A stretch of DNA of 64,000 nt from Robiginitomaculum sp. (lineage in GTDB: Bacteria; Pseudomonadota; Alphaproteobacteria; Caulobacterales; Maricaulaceae): assembly GCA_002733605.1 (NCBI GenBank), contig NVWK01000003.1, positions 62,001 through 126,000 on the forward strand, written 5' to 3'. Position 1 is the stretch's first letter, and each line of letters opens with the position of its first letter. Shown here piece after piece: positions 8,256 to 12,575 of this stretch. A program made the position numbers and the translations under genes. The notes below the pieces were generated by a model. It was given only the letters and a program-made list of their open reading frames with translations. It made no database searches and was not told the origin of the DNA.

Positions 8256-9356
8256 ATGGGAACTTTTGGTAAGTGGGCTACCGGGCTAATAATTCTTGGT
8301 GTTGTTGCGCTTGTATTAGAAGTGTTCACACCATGGGGTGCCAAGGCACATTCAGTTGCCATGGGAAACTCTGTTGAAGCCACGCTGAAAGATGCCGGCT
8401 TCGGGAGCTTGAACATCAGCATGGAAGGCAATGTCGCAAAGCTAAGCGGAAACCTGCCAAGTACTGACGCGAAAACGGCGGCTTTAACGGCGGCTCAAAA
8501 TGCGCAATGCGAAGACTGTGCCGGTCGTAGGGCAGGCGGAGCACGTTGGCATGAAGTCGACGGAACCGGCATTAATGTTGTCAAACCAATGCTCACCGTT
8601 CAACCTTATACCCTGACAGGCATTCGTACAAAAAATGCCATTCTAATTTTAAATGGCTATGTCTCTGACGAAGCCGAGAGACAAGAATTACTGGCTGTCG
8701 CCGAAACTTTATTTCCCGGCAATGTAACCGATCAAACAGTAAAAATCGCACAGGGTGCGCCAAACTCGGCTTGGCTAAGTGTGGCGAGCGCCAATATCGG
8801 TGGGCTATCCCTTTTGGAAACAGGGCGGTTTACCATGAAAGATTCAAGTTCGGTTCTTGTCGGACAAACGTCCACTGTCGAGGCCCGTAACAACATTAAT
8901 GAGGCCATTGCTGCGCTCGGGGGTTCCACAAATATCAGTGTCCCGAACATGCAAGCGGCCAATATTGGACAGATTAATGACGAGGATGTGTGTCAGCGAA
9001 ACTTTGAACGCCTTAAAGGCGACAATAAGATAGAGTTCAGCACCGGCAGTGCCGAGATAGCACAAGCCCCTAGCTTGGCATTATTGGCGAATTTGGCTGC
9101 AGCCGCAAAACAATGCTCCAGCTTTAATGTTGTGATTAACGGTCATACGGATATAGAGGGCGATTCTGAAAACAATCTTGTCCTCAGTCAAAACCGTGCC
9201 TTTGCCGTTGCCAATGTTTTAATCGCTCAGGGTGTTGACGCGGCTCAACTTTCCGCGTTTGGTCACGGGGACACAAACCCGATTGCTTCGAATGATACGG
9301 ATGAGGGTAAAGCCCAAAACCGCCGTATCGAATTTACAGTTACACAGTCTAAATAA
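8256..9356 (+). CDS. OmpA-domain protein with N-terminal membrane anchor and BON-like region
   Basis: 366 residues. It begins with a single hydrophobic segment (residues ~9-24, LIILGVVALVLEVF) that looks like a signal anchor. The middle (residues ~45-190) contains repeated BON-like units such as SLNISMEGNVAKLSGNLPS and AILILNGYVSDEAERQ. The C-terminus (residues ~255-362) is an OmpA_C peptidoglycan-binding domain with INGHTD, LSQNRA and NRRIEF, including the Asp and Arg that bind diaminopimelate. It probably links the envelope to the cell wall. The next gene starts 10 bp downstream, so the two are co-expressed. A CxxC (QCEDC) near residue 85 is unusual for the family. Confidence 0.85.
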   Translation: MGTFGKWATGLIILGVVALVLEVFTPWGAKAHSVAMGNSVEATLKDAGFGSLNISMEGNVAKLSGNLPSTDAKTAALTAAQNAQCEDCAGRRAGGARWHEVDGTGINVVKPMLTVQPYTLTGIRTKNAILILNGYVSDEAERQELLAVAETLFPGNVTDQTVKIAQGAPNSAWLSVASANIGGLSLLETGRFTMKDSSSVLVGQTSTVEARNNINEAIAALGGSTNISVPNMQAANIGQINDEDVCQRNFERLKGDNKIEFSTGSAEIAQAPSLALLANLAAAAKQCSSFNVVINGHTDIEGDSENNLVLSQNRAFAVANVLIAQGVDAAQLSAFGHGDTNPIASNDTDEGKAQNRRIEFTVTQSK

Positions 9357-9366
9357 GGGGACTCTT

Positions 9367-10419
9367 ATGGACAACATCATTTCTTACATTCTATTTTTTG
9401 GCTGGTTGCCATTAATGTTAATTGGCGCTTTGGCGCTCTTTATTGGCTGGTTGCTTTTTAGAGGCAAAGTACAGGCCGGTGATCTAAGCGTTGAAGGCGA
9501 GAGCCAGCTTCGTGCAGATGCAGATGGCTTGCGTGCGAAGGTCAATGAACTGGAAACGCGTGTGGGACGTCGGGATACGACAATTTCCAATCTGGAATCC
9601 CAACAGGGTTCATCATCAGGTGATGATGAGAGCTACGCTCTGGAATGGCGTAACCGCTATCTTGCAGCACGTGTAAAGTATCTTGAAGGACGTGTTTCTG
9701 AAGCGCCTACGCCGAAGAAAAAAACAGCCACAAAGAAAAAGGCTACACCTAAGAAAGTTGCAGCTGCGAAAAAAGTCGTGAAAAAAGCAGCACCTAAAAA
9801 AGCGGCGCCTAAGAAAACCGCTTCTAAAAAGGCGGCCCCCAAGAAAGCCGCCGTTGCTAAAAAATCTGTTGCAAAAAAAGCTGTCACTAAAAAAACCGTC
9901 ACGAAAAAAATTGTAAAAAAAGCAGCTCCGAAAAAGGCAGCACCTAAGAAAAAAGCCGCCCCTAAAAAGGCAGTAGCAAAAAAGAGTGTAGCTAAAAAGA
10001 CTGTGGCAAAGACAGCGCCTGCTAAAAAGAGTATAGCGAAAAAAGCGTCAGCAAAAAAAGCCCTTACGAAAAAGGCTCCCGCCAAGAAAGCAGCTTCTAA
10101 ATCGACGGATATGGATAAGTATTTGGCAAATGTACGTAAATACGACGCTAAAGCCAAAGCAAAAGCCGTTGAAAACATCGTGAAATATTGTGGTATCGCC
10201 CTGAAATCCCGCGATGCTTCCTTGGTCGCGTGTTCGGACGAAAAAGAGCTGGACCGGATTATCAAAGGTTTCTGTACAAAGAAACTGGGCATGACCAAGA
10301 ACCAGAAAGAAACGGTTGCCGAAGTCTGTACGCAGATGAAGTCTGATCGTTTTAAAAGCCGCGTAACCTTCTATTATTTGTGTGCAAAATCTGCACGTAA
10401 ATTGGGCGCGCTCAACTAA
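9367..10419 (+). CDS. Membrane-anchored lysine-rich (histone H1-like) protein with C-terminal DUF2853 domain
   Basis: 350 residues from ATG at 9367, preceded by AAGGGGA. Residues ~7-30 form one membrane segment. Residues ~48-110 are charged and probably helical (coiled coil). Residues ~116-245 are almost pure Lys/Ala/Pro/Thr/Val repeats of the KKAAPKK, KKSVAKK type, as in bacterial H1-like proteins. Residues ~249-348 (DKYLANVRKYD, VKYCGIALKSRDASLVACS, SRVTFYYLCAK) match the DUF2853 family as I know it, normally a small stand-alone cytosolic protein. If the N-terminus is outside, the Lys tail faces the cytoplasm and could bind DNA or another polyanion near the membrane (inference). It is the second gene after an OmpA-like gene and ends just before a terminator. 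Confidence 0.85.
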   Translation: MDNIISYILFFGWLPLMLIGALALFIGWLLFRGKVQAGDLSVEGESQLRADADGLRAKVNELETRVGRRDTTISNLESQQGSSSGDDESYALEWRNRYLAARVKYLEGRVSEAPTPKKKTATKKKATPKKVAAAKKVVKKAAPKKAAPKKTASKKAAPKKAAVAKKSVAKKAVTKKTVTKKIVKKAAPKKAAPKKKAAPKKAVAKKSVAKKTVAKTAPAKKSIAKKASAKKALTKKAPAKKAASKSTDMDKYLANVRKYDAKAKAKAVENIVKYCGIALKSRDASLVACSDEKELDRIIKGFCTKKLGMTKNQKETVAEVCTQMKSDRFKSRVTFYYLCAKSARKLGALN

Positions 10420-10446
10420 CAAACCTCTACACAATAGTGTATAGAA

Positions 10447-10477
10447 AGGCCCGTCACTCCGGCGGGCCTATTTTTTT
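10447..10477 (+). terminator. Rho-independent terminator after the OmpA/DUF2853 pair
   Basis: A 7-bp perfect stem AGGCCCG / CGGGCCT (10447-10453 and 10463-10469) with a 9-nt loop is followed by A and seven T residues at 10471-10477. It lies 28 bp after the DUF2853 gene stop. Confidence 0.93.
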
Positions 10478-10547
10478 GCCCCCACGTTATTGCGACCATC
10501 GGGAAAAACATATCCACGCCCTCGGCTCTACCCCCACTCTCACGGCT

Positions 10548-10967
10548 ATGGATGGTTCCGCGCAGACATACACCGATATTGAACCCTTTTGGGATCGTCA
10601 GAGATGGCCATCATTTTCCTGTGCGGAAATGGCATGTTCCCATTGTGGGCAAGCCTATATCTGGCCGGAATTTATGGACCGCTTACAAACAGCGCGTACG
10701 CTTTCAGGGCGGCCATTCATCATTTACTCGGGCCATAGATGCGGCTTGCATAATGCGCGGGTCGGGGGCGCACCCTTGTCCCAACATTTGAAACTGGCCG
10801 CAGATATTGGCATTGCCGGACATGACCGGCACCGGCTTTATCAAGCGTGCCGAACGGCCGGATTTACCGGATTTGGATTTTACTCAACATTCTTACATGT
10901 CGACCTTGGCCGGAAGCGGTCATGGTATGGGCAGGGAAAGGCAAAACAATTATGGCAAATATTTTAA
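10548..10967 (+). CDS. M15-family D-Ala-D-Ala carboxypeptidase-like protein
   Basis: 139 residues from ATG at 10548; the frame is open upstream but overlaps the terminator, so the inner start is preferred. The M15_3 zinc site is intact: SGHRCGLHN leads to SQH (H80), followed six residues later by D86 in AADI, and LHVDLG supplies H117. CAEMACSHCG near residue 30 is the cysteine-containing lead-in common to phage-type members. No signal peptide is present, which fits a phage endolysin-like enzyme that needs a holin or another route. It overlaps the next gene by 16 bases. No other phage genes surround the pair. Confidence 0.85.
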   Translation: MDGSAQTYTDIEPFWDRQRWPSFSCAEMACSHCGQAYIWPEFMDRLQTARTLSGRPFIIYSGHRCGLHNARVGGAPLSQHLKLAADIGIAGHDRHRLYQACRTAGFTGFGFYSTFLHVDLGRKRSWYGQGKAKQLWQIF

Positions 10968-11449
10968 GCTTTGGCGCAGACGCGGTCGCAGGCGGTATAT
11001 TCGGTGTTTTCGGAACTGCTTTGGGGCGTGTCGCCAGTTATTTCGAACGCCAGCAAACCTTTGTGCAAGAAGAAAAACGCTGGGGCCATGAATTGAAATT
11101 GCACGAACTACAAATGAAGGCAAAAAAACAGGAAACAGAACTGGAGCTGGCCATTGAGGCCCAGAAAGGCTCGTGGAGAGGCTTGGAGGCTTCATTGCAA
11201 GCAGATGCAAATATAGGCATTGCCAACAAATGGGTCATCAATGTTTTGCGCTTGGTGCGGCCTGCCTTAACCCTATTGCTCTGGCTGATAACCGCGTGGA
11301 TTTTCTCCAAAACCCGAGATGGAAATATTGCCAGCTCCGCCGTTTTTGCGGCCACCGCCTCGACTTTATGGTGGTTCGGAGACCGGGCACCTAAACCACA
11401 GATGGGTATCAGTTACCATGGAGAAACTGCCCAACAGCATAGATTGTGA
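10952..11449 (+). CDS. Holin-like small membrane protein
   Basis: 165 residues from ATG at 10952, overlapping the M15 gene by 16 bases. It has an amphipathic N-terminus, a long charged helix (residues ~30-75, many Lys/Glu/Gln), then two hydrophobic segments (about 95-118, VLRLVRPALTLLLWLITAWIF, and about 125-145). This layout is seen in the 3TM-type holin-like proteins next to M15 or lysozyme genes in alphaproteobacterial phages and phage remnants. The family assignment rests on architecture and neighbour only. Its 3' end overlaps the convergent DUF3667 gene by 41 bp. Confidence 0.6.
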   Translation: MANILSFGADAVAGGIFGVFGTALGRVASYFERQQTFVQEEKRWGHELKLHELQMKAKKQETELELAIEAQKGSWRGLEASLQADANIGIANKWVINVLRLVRPALTLLLWLITAWIFSKTRDGNIASSAVFAATASTLWWFGDRAPKPQMGISYHGETAQQHRL

Positions 11450-12575
11450 TTACGGACAGGATAACGAACAGGAGGAGGGAATATAAAAACCCGCTGATGC
11501 TGGCCGTCCAGATGGTTTTAATCCATCCTCGTCCATACATACGTTTTATGGACAGGGTGAAATAAACCATCATCCAGAGCACAATCGTTAAAAAAGCAAA
11601 CGCCCCTGGAAGAACCCATGACATCAAAATAGTAAAAAACAGGGCAATAAACAAAAATGAATGCAGATAAATTGCGTGGATAAGGTGATCGATGAGCATG
11701 GCATTTGAACTGCGCAGAAACAGTGCGCCAAGGATCATGGCAAATGGCACCATGCTGAACATCACGCGCGGTATCCAGATATTTAGAATAGCATTGAATT
11801 TTTTTGGATTTAAGAGAACGTCTTTCATGCTACGTTCCAGATTGACTGAATCGTTATTGAGGGTCAAATTTCCATCTTCTGCCTTTGAAATTCCTATGGG
11901 TTGATCCGTTTCTTCGGCCTCTCGTATGAGATCTTTAACTGTGCTTTCAATGTCTTTGTTCGTGTTCATAAGTTCTTCTATGTCCTCATTTAAGCCTGCA
12001 AGGCTTTCCACATCTTCATCTGTGAGGTTTGGGCTGCGGCTGAGAAAGTTTATCTTTACCGTTTTGCCGTCTATTGAAAATGTGTTGGGTGAAGCCCTGT
12101 ATTGCTGACTTGCCGTGACTTGACTGTCTGTATCTTTTGATGTGGTTTTTTCACTTGTTTCCGGGGTGTCTGCTATCAGATCAAAGTTGATGAAGTCCGT
12201 ATTTGAAATGCTCATAAAGCTGAAGAAAATGATACTTACAACCAGATAGGTTCGTACAGGTGCAGAATAGCGTGTGCGGGCGCCATCCGCATATTCACGG
12301 GCAACTTTCCCCGGTTTGAATATGAGAGCCGCCCATGTTTTCCACATCCGCGATTCAAACGATAGAAATCCGCCAAGAATATCCGTTCCCATTGACCATA
12401 AAGAGCGCCGCAAATCATCATTTCTTTGCCCGCAATTCGGGCAGTAATTATTTGCAGTTTCAAAACCACACGACAAACAATTATCGAACCTATTTGCCTC
12501 TGGCGCAGGTTTGGAGATTATATCGCCCGTGGCCGCTATGAGAAGGGCCTCGTTTTCTGTCGAATCTATACTCAT
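11409..12575 (-). CDS. DUF3667 family zinc-ribbon membrane protein
   Basis: 388 residues. A four-Cys zinc ribbon (C33, C36, C45, C48 in CLSCG and YCPNCGQ) is followed by the typical DUF3667 stretch TWAALIFKPGKVAREYADGARTRY and several membrane segments: one around residues 130-150 and a cluster of about four in the last 130 residues. The stretch between (about 165-275) is polar and low in complexity. The role of the family is unknown; it is a cytoplasm-facing zinc ribbon on an inner-membrane protein. It converges with the holin-like gene and the 3' ends overlap. Confidence 0.85.
   Translation of the reverse strand: MSIDSTENEALLIAATGDIISKPAPEANRFDNCLSCGFETANNYCPNCGQRNDDLRRSLWSMGTDILGGFLSFESRMWKTWAALIFKPGKVAREYADGARTRYSAPVRTYLVVSIIFFSFMSISNTDFINFDLIADTPETSEKTTSKDTDSQVTASQQYRASPNTFSIDGKTVKINFLSRSPNLTDEDVESLAGLNEDIEELMNTNKDIESTVKDLIREAEETDQPIGISKAEDGNLTLNNDSVNLERSMKDVLLNPKKFNAILNIWIPRVMFSMVPFAMILGALFLRSSNAMLIDHLIHAIYLHSFLFIALFFTILMSWVLPGAFAFLTIVLWMMVYFTLSIKRMYGRGWIKTIWTASISGFLYSLLLFVILSVITIYAVGQFLHGN

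Follow-up and report, generated by a model that had tools for sequence, protein, structure and literature searches.

Why would a single protein join a membrane helix, a long polycation and a DUF2853 domain, and why would an OmpA-type gene lie directly upstream of it? This question is raised by the gene at 9367..10419 (+ strand) of the window, by which we mean the whole 64,000-nucleotide stretch of Robiginitomaculum sp. DNA that was analyzed. How bacterial chromosomes and ribosomes are placed relative to the membrane and the wall is an open question, and this protein, here called TMK, is gene-paired with a putative wall-binding partner and has exchangeable tail modules in common with ribosomal proteins. 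Among these modules, HHH is homologous to a tail for which DNA binding has been reported. Should the tails serve one function on all their carriers, attachment of nucleoid to wall or of ribosome to nucleoid would be testable by deleting single tails. DUF2853 also gains a cellular setting.

Architecture of TMK and its partner gene

TMK is a 350-aa protein combining an N-terminal membrane helix (TM), a Lys/Ala/Pro (K/A/P) repeat and a C-terminal domain, which confirms what the initial annotation had observed. All of its parts lie on the + strand. The membrane helix covers residues 3-32 (9373..9462; AlphaFold2 helix and hydropathy), and a second long helix predicted by AlphaFold2 at residues 43-80 (9493..9606) is read as a putative coiled coil. 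The motif YALEWRNRYLAARVKYLEGR (residues 90-109; 9634..9693) was the most conserved stretch of the N-terminal half in alignments of 15 and 37 sequences. It is followed by a K/A/P polycation, disordered according to composition and AlphaFold2, with a net charge of +51 (residues 113-250; 9703..10116), and by the DUF2853 domain (residues 251-346; 10117..10404). The proposed identity of this last domain held, with 94.2 bits against DUF2853 (PF11015; curated Pfam cut-off, 25) and a fold that matched 2pyq, a solved member of the family, in structure comparison.

The composition and predicted disorder of the tail fit a Lys/Ala-rich H1-like region. Scores against dedicated models stayed below their cut-offs, both for HC2 (PF07382; 35.8 bits, Pfam cut-off 40) and for the bacterial H1-like models NF038053 (54.4 of 80) and NF038052 (29.2 of 135). 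The model for Rv3852 (NF050153), a protein that has Lys/Ala-rich repeats, matched the Lys repeats of TMK only (16.8 of 100 bits), and the PhaH model NF045508 gave no match to TMK at E 0.1, one orthologue (L060) reaching 40.6 of 250 bits.

The partner gene (8256..9356, +) encodes 366 aa with an N-terminal hydrophobic helix, assigned by eye, a BON-like region and an OmpA domain (residues 261-356; 9036..9323, +) that scored 72.4 bits against the Pfam profile (cut-off, 27.2). Since the Pfam BON profile scored below its cut-off (23.6 bits versus 27), that region is called BON-like only. Downstream of TMK, a peptidase M15 gene (10437-10967, +) overlaps a small gene with membrane helices that is holin-like by eye (10847-11449, +); each occurs in 40/60 orthologue loci, and the two look like a domesticated lysis pair. 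A DUF3667 protein is encoded on the opposite (-) strand (11409-12575) and recurs in 38/60 orthologue loci.

Orthologues and an older core beside OmpA

Orthologues of TMK, including members of Robiginitomaculum, Hellea, Litorimonas and Algimonas, were retrieved at 56 loci through the motifs YALEW and YLAARVKY, independently of DUF2853. A DUF2853 domain in the same frame was found in 50 of these 56 loci, some of them cut; L135 and L137 had HHH only, without DUF2853, while L147, L152 and L153 were cut short near the locus end and L151 had a broken frame. Among 56 full-length orthologues, DUF2853 was present in 54 and an HHH module following the K/A/P linker in 43, with both in 41 and HHH only in two. 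The window's TMK is one of the 13 that have DUF2853 and lack HHH. Orthologues without HHH were denser in Lys, with a median best 60-residue count of 24 (n = 13) versus 19 (n = 41; p = 0.002, kinship ignored), and total linker charge showed no significant difference with HHH loss (p = 0.11). Two HHH modules were found in each of three orthologues (L132:3479-4909:+, L135:3992-5104:+ and L137:3992-5122:+), the second one occupying, in L135 and L137, the place normally taken by DUF2853.

A hydrophobic N-terminal segment was present in all 20 orthologues inspected, the window's included (best 19-residue mean hydropathy of at least 1.87). An OmpA gene adjoined TMK in 51 of 60 distinct loci, again including the window, a count that, like that of the full-length orthologues, merges two overlapping collections only where frames were identical and includes loci found via DUF2853 itself. 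Among these orthologues, the C-domain is DUF2853 and both the helix and the OmpA neighbor are kept in most homologues, the two points on which the initial annotation had staked its reading. A nitronate-monooxygenase-like gene lay directly upstream instead in seven of the nine loci without an OmpA neighbor, one of which belongs to Robiginitomaculum antarcticum (L149); the partner is thus not indispensable.

The pairing extends beyond these orthologues. A profile of 256 positions, combining the N-terminal half with HHH, had hits in 26 of the 289 class genomes sampled. None of the hits outside the window's genome reached the first 71 of the 256 positions, where the membrane helix is located, so that class-wide matches represent linker and HHH. 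Their hosts were bL21, NuoE, uS2 and proteins with an N-terminal membrane helix, and an OmpA-type gene adjoined 7 of 15 class-wide TM-HHH loci (flanks of about 1.4 kb). Within the window's family, HHH modules were found in all 20 chosen genomes, 15 of which are without DUF2853. Of 37 rows, 30 loci were fetched, and these comprised 15 TM proteins, seven bL21, three uS2, three NuoE, one uL15 and one without an assigned host, and an OmpA gene lay beside 13 of the 15 TM-HHH proteins, two of the 15 being TMK orthologues. TMK itself, with its N-terminal membrane helix and the OmpA gene directly upstream, resembles the OmpA-linked TM-HHH proteins of Alphaproteobacteria in these two respects and lacks their C-terminal HHH.

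In a second family of the order, three genomes carried OmpA followed directly by TM-HHH-DUF2853 without polylysine, so the Lys tail, which had been taken as central, is not the defining part. In a third family, DUF2853 was found in 4/149 genomes, three of which, all of one genus, encode DUF2853-TM-OmpA as a single chain. Both domains exceeded their Pfam cut-offs in the L212 chain (108.1 bits for DUF2853 and 42.8 bits for OmpA); in the L219 and L220 chains, OmpA was recognized by similarity to the OmpA of the window (E 2e-7 and 2.5e-6, respectively) and the helix by reading. Irrespective of the Lys tail, this fusion ties DUF2853 to an OmpA partner, a stronger link than had been proposed.

Across the class, DUF2853 was rare (9/385 genomes), and 10 of 11 rows lay in frames of at most 157 aa, mostly alone. 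The initial view of DUF2853 as a stand-alone domain is therefore mostly correct outside the family and fails within it, where DUF2853 is a C-terminal module also found on ribosomal proteins. No OmpA gene was found beside stand-alone DUF2853 at 41 loci (one gene counted twice; flanks of about 1.4 kb in most). All eight DUF2853-bearing genomes within the 289-genome sample, from five families, had HHH modules, versus 26/289 overall (p = 1.4e-9, ignoring kinship, assuming that the 289 genomes lie within the 385 and leaving out the ninth DUF2853-bearing genome, G795).

Tails shared with ribosomal and other proteins

DUF2853 was found in at least 58 of the 137 genomes of the window's family, with at least seven copies in one genome and many in long frames, of which only part was fetched for host assignment. 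Pfam identified fusions to uL15 (L044), bS16 (L035) and uS2 (L061). The uL15 fusion occurred in 24/137 family genomes (full length in 22 rows, with G054 and G040 added), the uS2 fusion in 11/137 (full length in nine rows, with the addition of G007, where a single frame matched in two pieces, and of G017, starting at query residue 80) and the bS16 fusion in 1/14 genomes of its genus, a second being likely where a contig end cuts the frame. Phasin-like hosts were named on weak matches (L059, NF047773, 19 of 35 bits; L082, TIGR01837, 14.6 of 94.7 bits, and Pfam Phasin, 13.5 of 28.8) and on their likeness to each other. All four versions (on uL15, uS2, the phasin-like protein and the membrane protein) coexist in G005, a single-contig genome, so they do not stem from assembly error. 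In the chosen set of family genomes, uL15 ended in DUF2853, in one of two HHH types, in HHH plus DUF2853 (G040) or in a bare K tail.

In the window's genome, HHH modules end both uL15 and uS2, and the phasin-like protein has a short Lys-containing end tail without DUF2853. Two further proteins of this genome, both named by eye, carry related extensions: NuoE (L004:1489-2310:-, contig 8 of G000) has a bare K/A/P tail and, unlike the NuoE of relatives, is missing HHH, and ATP synthase beta (L003:88-1617:-, contig 7 of G000) starts with about 40 additional K/A/P-rich residues, so that a respiratory enzyme has an N-terminal polycation.

The charge of the modules varied with their host. Median DUF2853 charge was +11 on the membrane protein, +3 on uL15, +2 on uS2, +0.5 on phasin-like proteins and +3 in stand-alone copies, with -4 on the lone bS16 host; median HHH charge was +3 on the membrane protein and mildly acidic (-1 to -7) on most hosts. 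Being strongly basic on the membrane protein only, DUF2853 is probably not a general DNA binder, and these host-dependent charges make it more likely that it serves as a protein-interaction or oligomerization part.

Trees were built for both modules. In the HHH tree (93 modules), five uL15 copies of the same type, grouped together at 99/91, nested in the membrane-protein clade (46 membrane plus 5 uL15 rows, 100/94; 41 plus 5 rows, 99/99), and the other uL15 type (seven copies) grouped with uS2 copies. In the DUF2853 tree (129 rows), the uL15, uS2, phasin-like, bS16 and short stand-alone copies formed one clade (41 rows, 100/97), with the uS2 copies among those of uL15 and the membrane-protein copies next to the clade. 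Any pair of the uL15 and uS2 copies in G005 and G049 was 83-90% alike, and the uL15 copy of G002 was 55-60% alike to them. As the two trees have few columns (99 and 64), arbitrary roots and many unresolved forks, and as the bootstrap of the HHH tree had not settled, transfer from the membrane protein to the ribosomal proteins is the likelier reading and not proven. In another family, a TM-HHH gene (L185:749-1435:-) adjoins NuoE (L185:1468-2649:-) and the two HHH modules pair as sisters (100/92), which looks like recent copying between adjacent genes.

Such mobility could mean that K/A/P-coding repeats simply recombine and spread modules to tolerant protein ends, with no shared function. The uL15 tail varies between species of one genus (DUF2853, HHH or bare), the uL15 and uS2 copies are 83-90% alike both within and between G005 and G049, and the window's genome has its bare NuoE tail and K-rich start of ATP synthase beta (AtpD), all of which would be in keeping with such drift. 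We nevertheless consider it unlikely, given that the modules remain folded and recognizable across families, that the OmpA/TM-HHH pairing recurs over the class and the DUF2853-TM-OmpA chain in another family, and that HHH accompanies DUF2853 in every DUF2853-bearing genome of the 289-genome sample.

The presence of DUF2853 on uL15, uS2 and bS16 of relatives, and of HHH on two ribosomal proteins (uL15 and uS2) in the window's genome, raises another, rather unlikely, explanation, in which these modules bind among themselves or to a shared partner and TMK captures like-tailed ribosomes, fixing polysomes at the membrane. The modules common to uL15 and the membrane protein in the HHH tree and the G040 uL15, whose HHH plus DUF2853 order is that of most TMK orthologues, point the same way. 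In the window's genome, however, no ribosomal protein with DUF2853 is among the matches listed and TMK is without HHH, so that like does not meet like; moreover, in G112, listed as 100% complete, the one DUF2853 among the matches listed is on the membrane protein.

It is less probable still that TM-HHH proteins are accessory subunits of complex I or of light-harvesting complexes, TMK being a derived member. The HHH module does occur in protein-O of the Dinoroseobacter RC-LH1 (8yy9_O) and in 9wqv_a, which bears the name of a complex I 41 kDa subunit, and the protein-O paper reports a C-domain shared with NuoE and a gene located between nuoE and nuoF (PMC12079452). NuoE also has HHH in relatives of the window's genome. 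Against this, the window's gene adjoins OmpA rather than lying inside a nuo operon, and in the 289 genomes the profile matches outside the window's genome began beyond the helix region.

Positive residues follow the TMK helix, which predicts a cytoplasmic location for the part C-terminal to it. Together with the occurrence of the same modules on ribosomal proteins, this charge makes a cytoplasm-facing tail most likely and the teichoic-like targets of the initial annotation unlikely. A polycation outside the cytoplasm that binds envelope polyanions fits the periplasmic location expected of the partner's OmpA domain and is very improbable, as both the charge after the helix and the cytoplasmic or cytoplasm-facing position of the other carriers (ribosomal proteins and NuoE) argue for the opposite side.

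A proposed tether and its known relatives

We tentatively favor TMK as a tether that holds nucleic acid at a wall-linked site of the inner membrane. Its helix would sit in the inner membrane beside, and perhaps in contact with, the OmpA-type partner, which would bind peptidoglycan, and its cytoplasmic tail would hold nucleoid DNA or polysome RNA, keeping chromosome or polysomes close to the wall-anchored membrane. The system would have started from an OmpA-type gene adjoining the gene of a TM protein that ends in HHH; in the window's clade, the tail would then have acquired the polylysine stretch and DUF2853, and the window's gene would have lost HHH, so that nucleic-acid binding would probably fall to the polycation. 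Copies of the same modules on ribosomal proteins and the phasin-like protein may give those particles the same attachment. In favor of this proposal are the OmpA pairing of TMK orthologues and of other TM-HHH genes, the DUF2853-TM-OmpA chain, the homology of HHH to that of PhaH, the DNA binding reported for HHH and KPAA tails, the uL15 modules nested in the membrane-protein clade and the denser Lys where HHH is missing. Against it speak the nine loci without an OmpA neighbor, the TM-HHH-DUF2853 proteins of another family, without polylysine, the host-dependent charge of DUF2853 and HHH, the non-significant difference in linker charge, the lack of HHH in TMK itself and the lack of OmpA genes in the flanks fetched around stand-alone DUF2853 genes. 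Read from sequence, the modules suggest an interchangeable tail kit that fixes large cell parts to DNA or the wall. A bolder and doubtful extension is that HHH, DUF2853 and K/A/P form a common address tag in Alphaproteobacteria, whose exchangeable tails would hold ribosomes (uL15, uS2, bS16, bL21), storage granules (phasins), complex I (NuoE) and a wall-anchored membrane protein to the chromosome, physically coupling ribosomes and wall to the nucleoid.

The interpretation given initially is thus upheld for the domain, the helix and the OmpA link and revised for the Lys tail as defining part, with teichoic-like targets being unlikely. Its statement that no such system had been described was also too strong, as membrane-anchored nucleoid proteins are already known and PhaF, AlgP and PhaH, with their H1 or HHH tails, are described as tethers to the nucleoid. 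The N-terminus of Caulobacter PhaH is reported to bind granules and its HHH to bind DNA nonspecifically, and PhaF and PhaM to bind DNA via a histone-like domain (PMC13052382). DNA is also reported to be bound by KPAA peptides and by a fragment of the AlgP tail, and removal of AlgP's KPAA tail to disturb the spacing of polyphosphate granules (PMC9239181), while Rv3852 is a membrane-anchored nucleoid-associated protein linked to cell-wall organization (PMC8233713).

PhaH (Caulobacter) and PhaF and AlgP (Pseudomonas) join a cargo-binding N-terminal part to a C-terminal HHH or K/A/P tail that is reported to bind DNA, a plan comparable to that of TMK. The HHH of PhaH is, moreover, homologous to that of TMK orthologues: HHH segments taken by themselves matched the PhaH model in its HHH region (E 1.2e-10 to 9.1e-18) and likewise the tail regions of the bL21, uS2 and NuoE models, and Pfam HHH_5 exceeded its cut-off for one of four segments (27.1 versus 27). 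Unlike these proteins, TMK has as its N-terminal part a membrane helix encoded beside an OmpA gene, its tail ends in DUF2853 and its HHH has probably been lost. It is this common plan, with membrane helix and OmpA partner replacing the granule-binding part, that makes a nucleic-acid tether the most likely reading.

The other relatives are more distant. Rv3852 resembles TMK in its membrane anchor and proposed nucleoid link and differs in anchoring through a C-terminal helix, its abstract mentioning neither DUF2853 nor an OmpA neighbor (PMC8233713). Protein-O shares with the TMK family a membrane N-terminus, a flexible linker and a C-terminal domain of the same HHH family, and differs by its several N-terminal membrane helices and its photosynthetic complex; the passages that describe it do not mention polylysine or DUF2853, and note that the C-domain common to protein-O, NuoE and others is of obscure function (PMC12079452). 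The HHH-tailed bL21, uS2 and NuoE (NCBIfam PRK12278, PRK12311 and PRK12373, models known by names and matched ranges) have the same C-terminal HHH and are found in family genomes; unlike TMK, they are subunits without an N-terminal membrane helix. 2pyq, unlike TMK, is a stand-alone DUF2853 of 114 residues, listed as an uncharacterised protein. In the literature searched, DUF2853 turned up in one paper, as a name in a table, and no shared tails on ribosomal proteins were identified. As far as our searches show, what is new relative to these systems is DUF2853 as a ribosomal-protein tail, HHH and DUF2853 as modules that uL15 has in common with a membrane protein, and the single chain of DUF2853, TM and OmpA.
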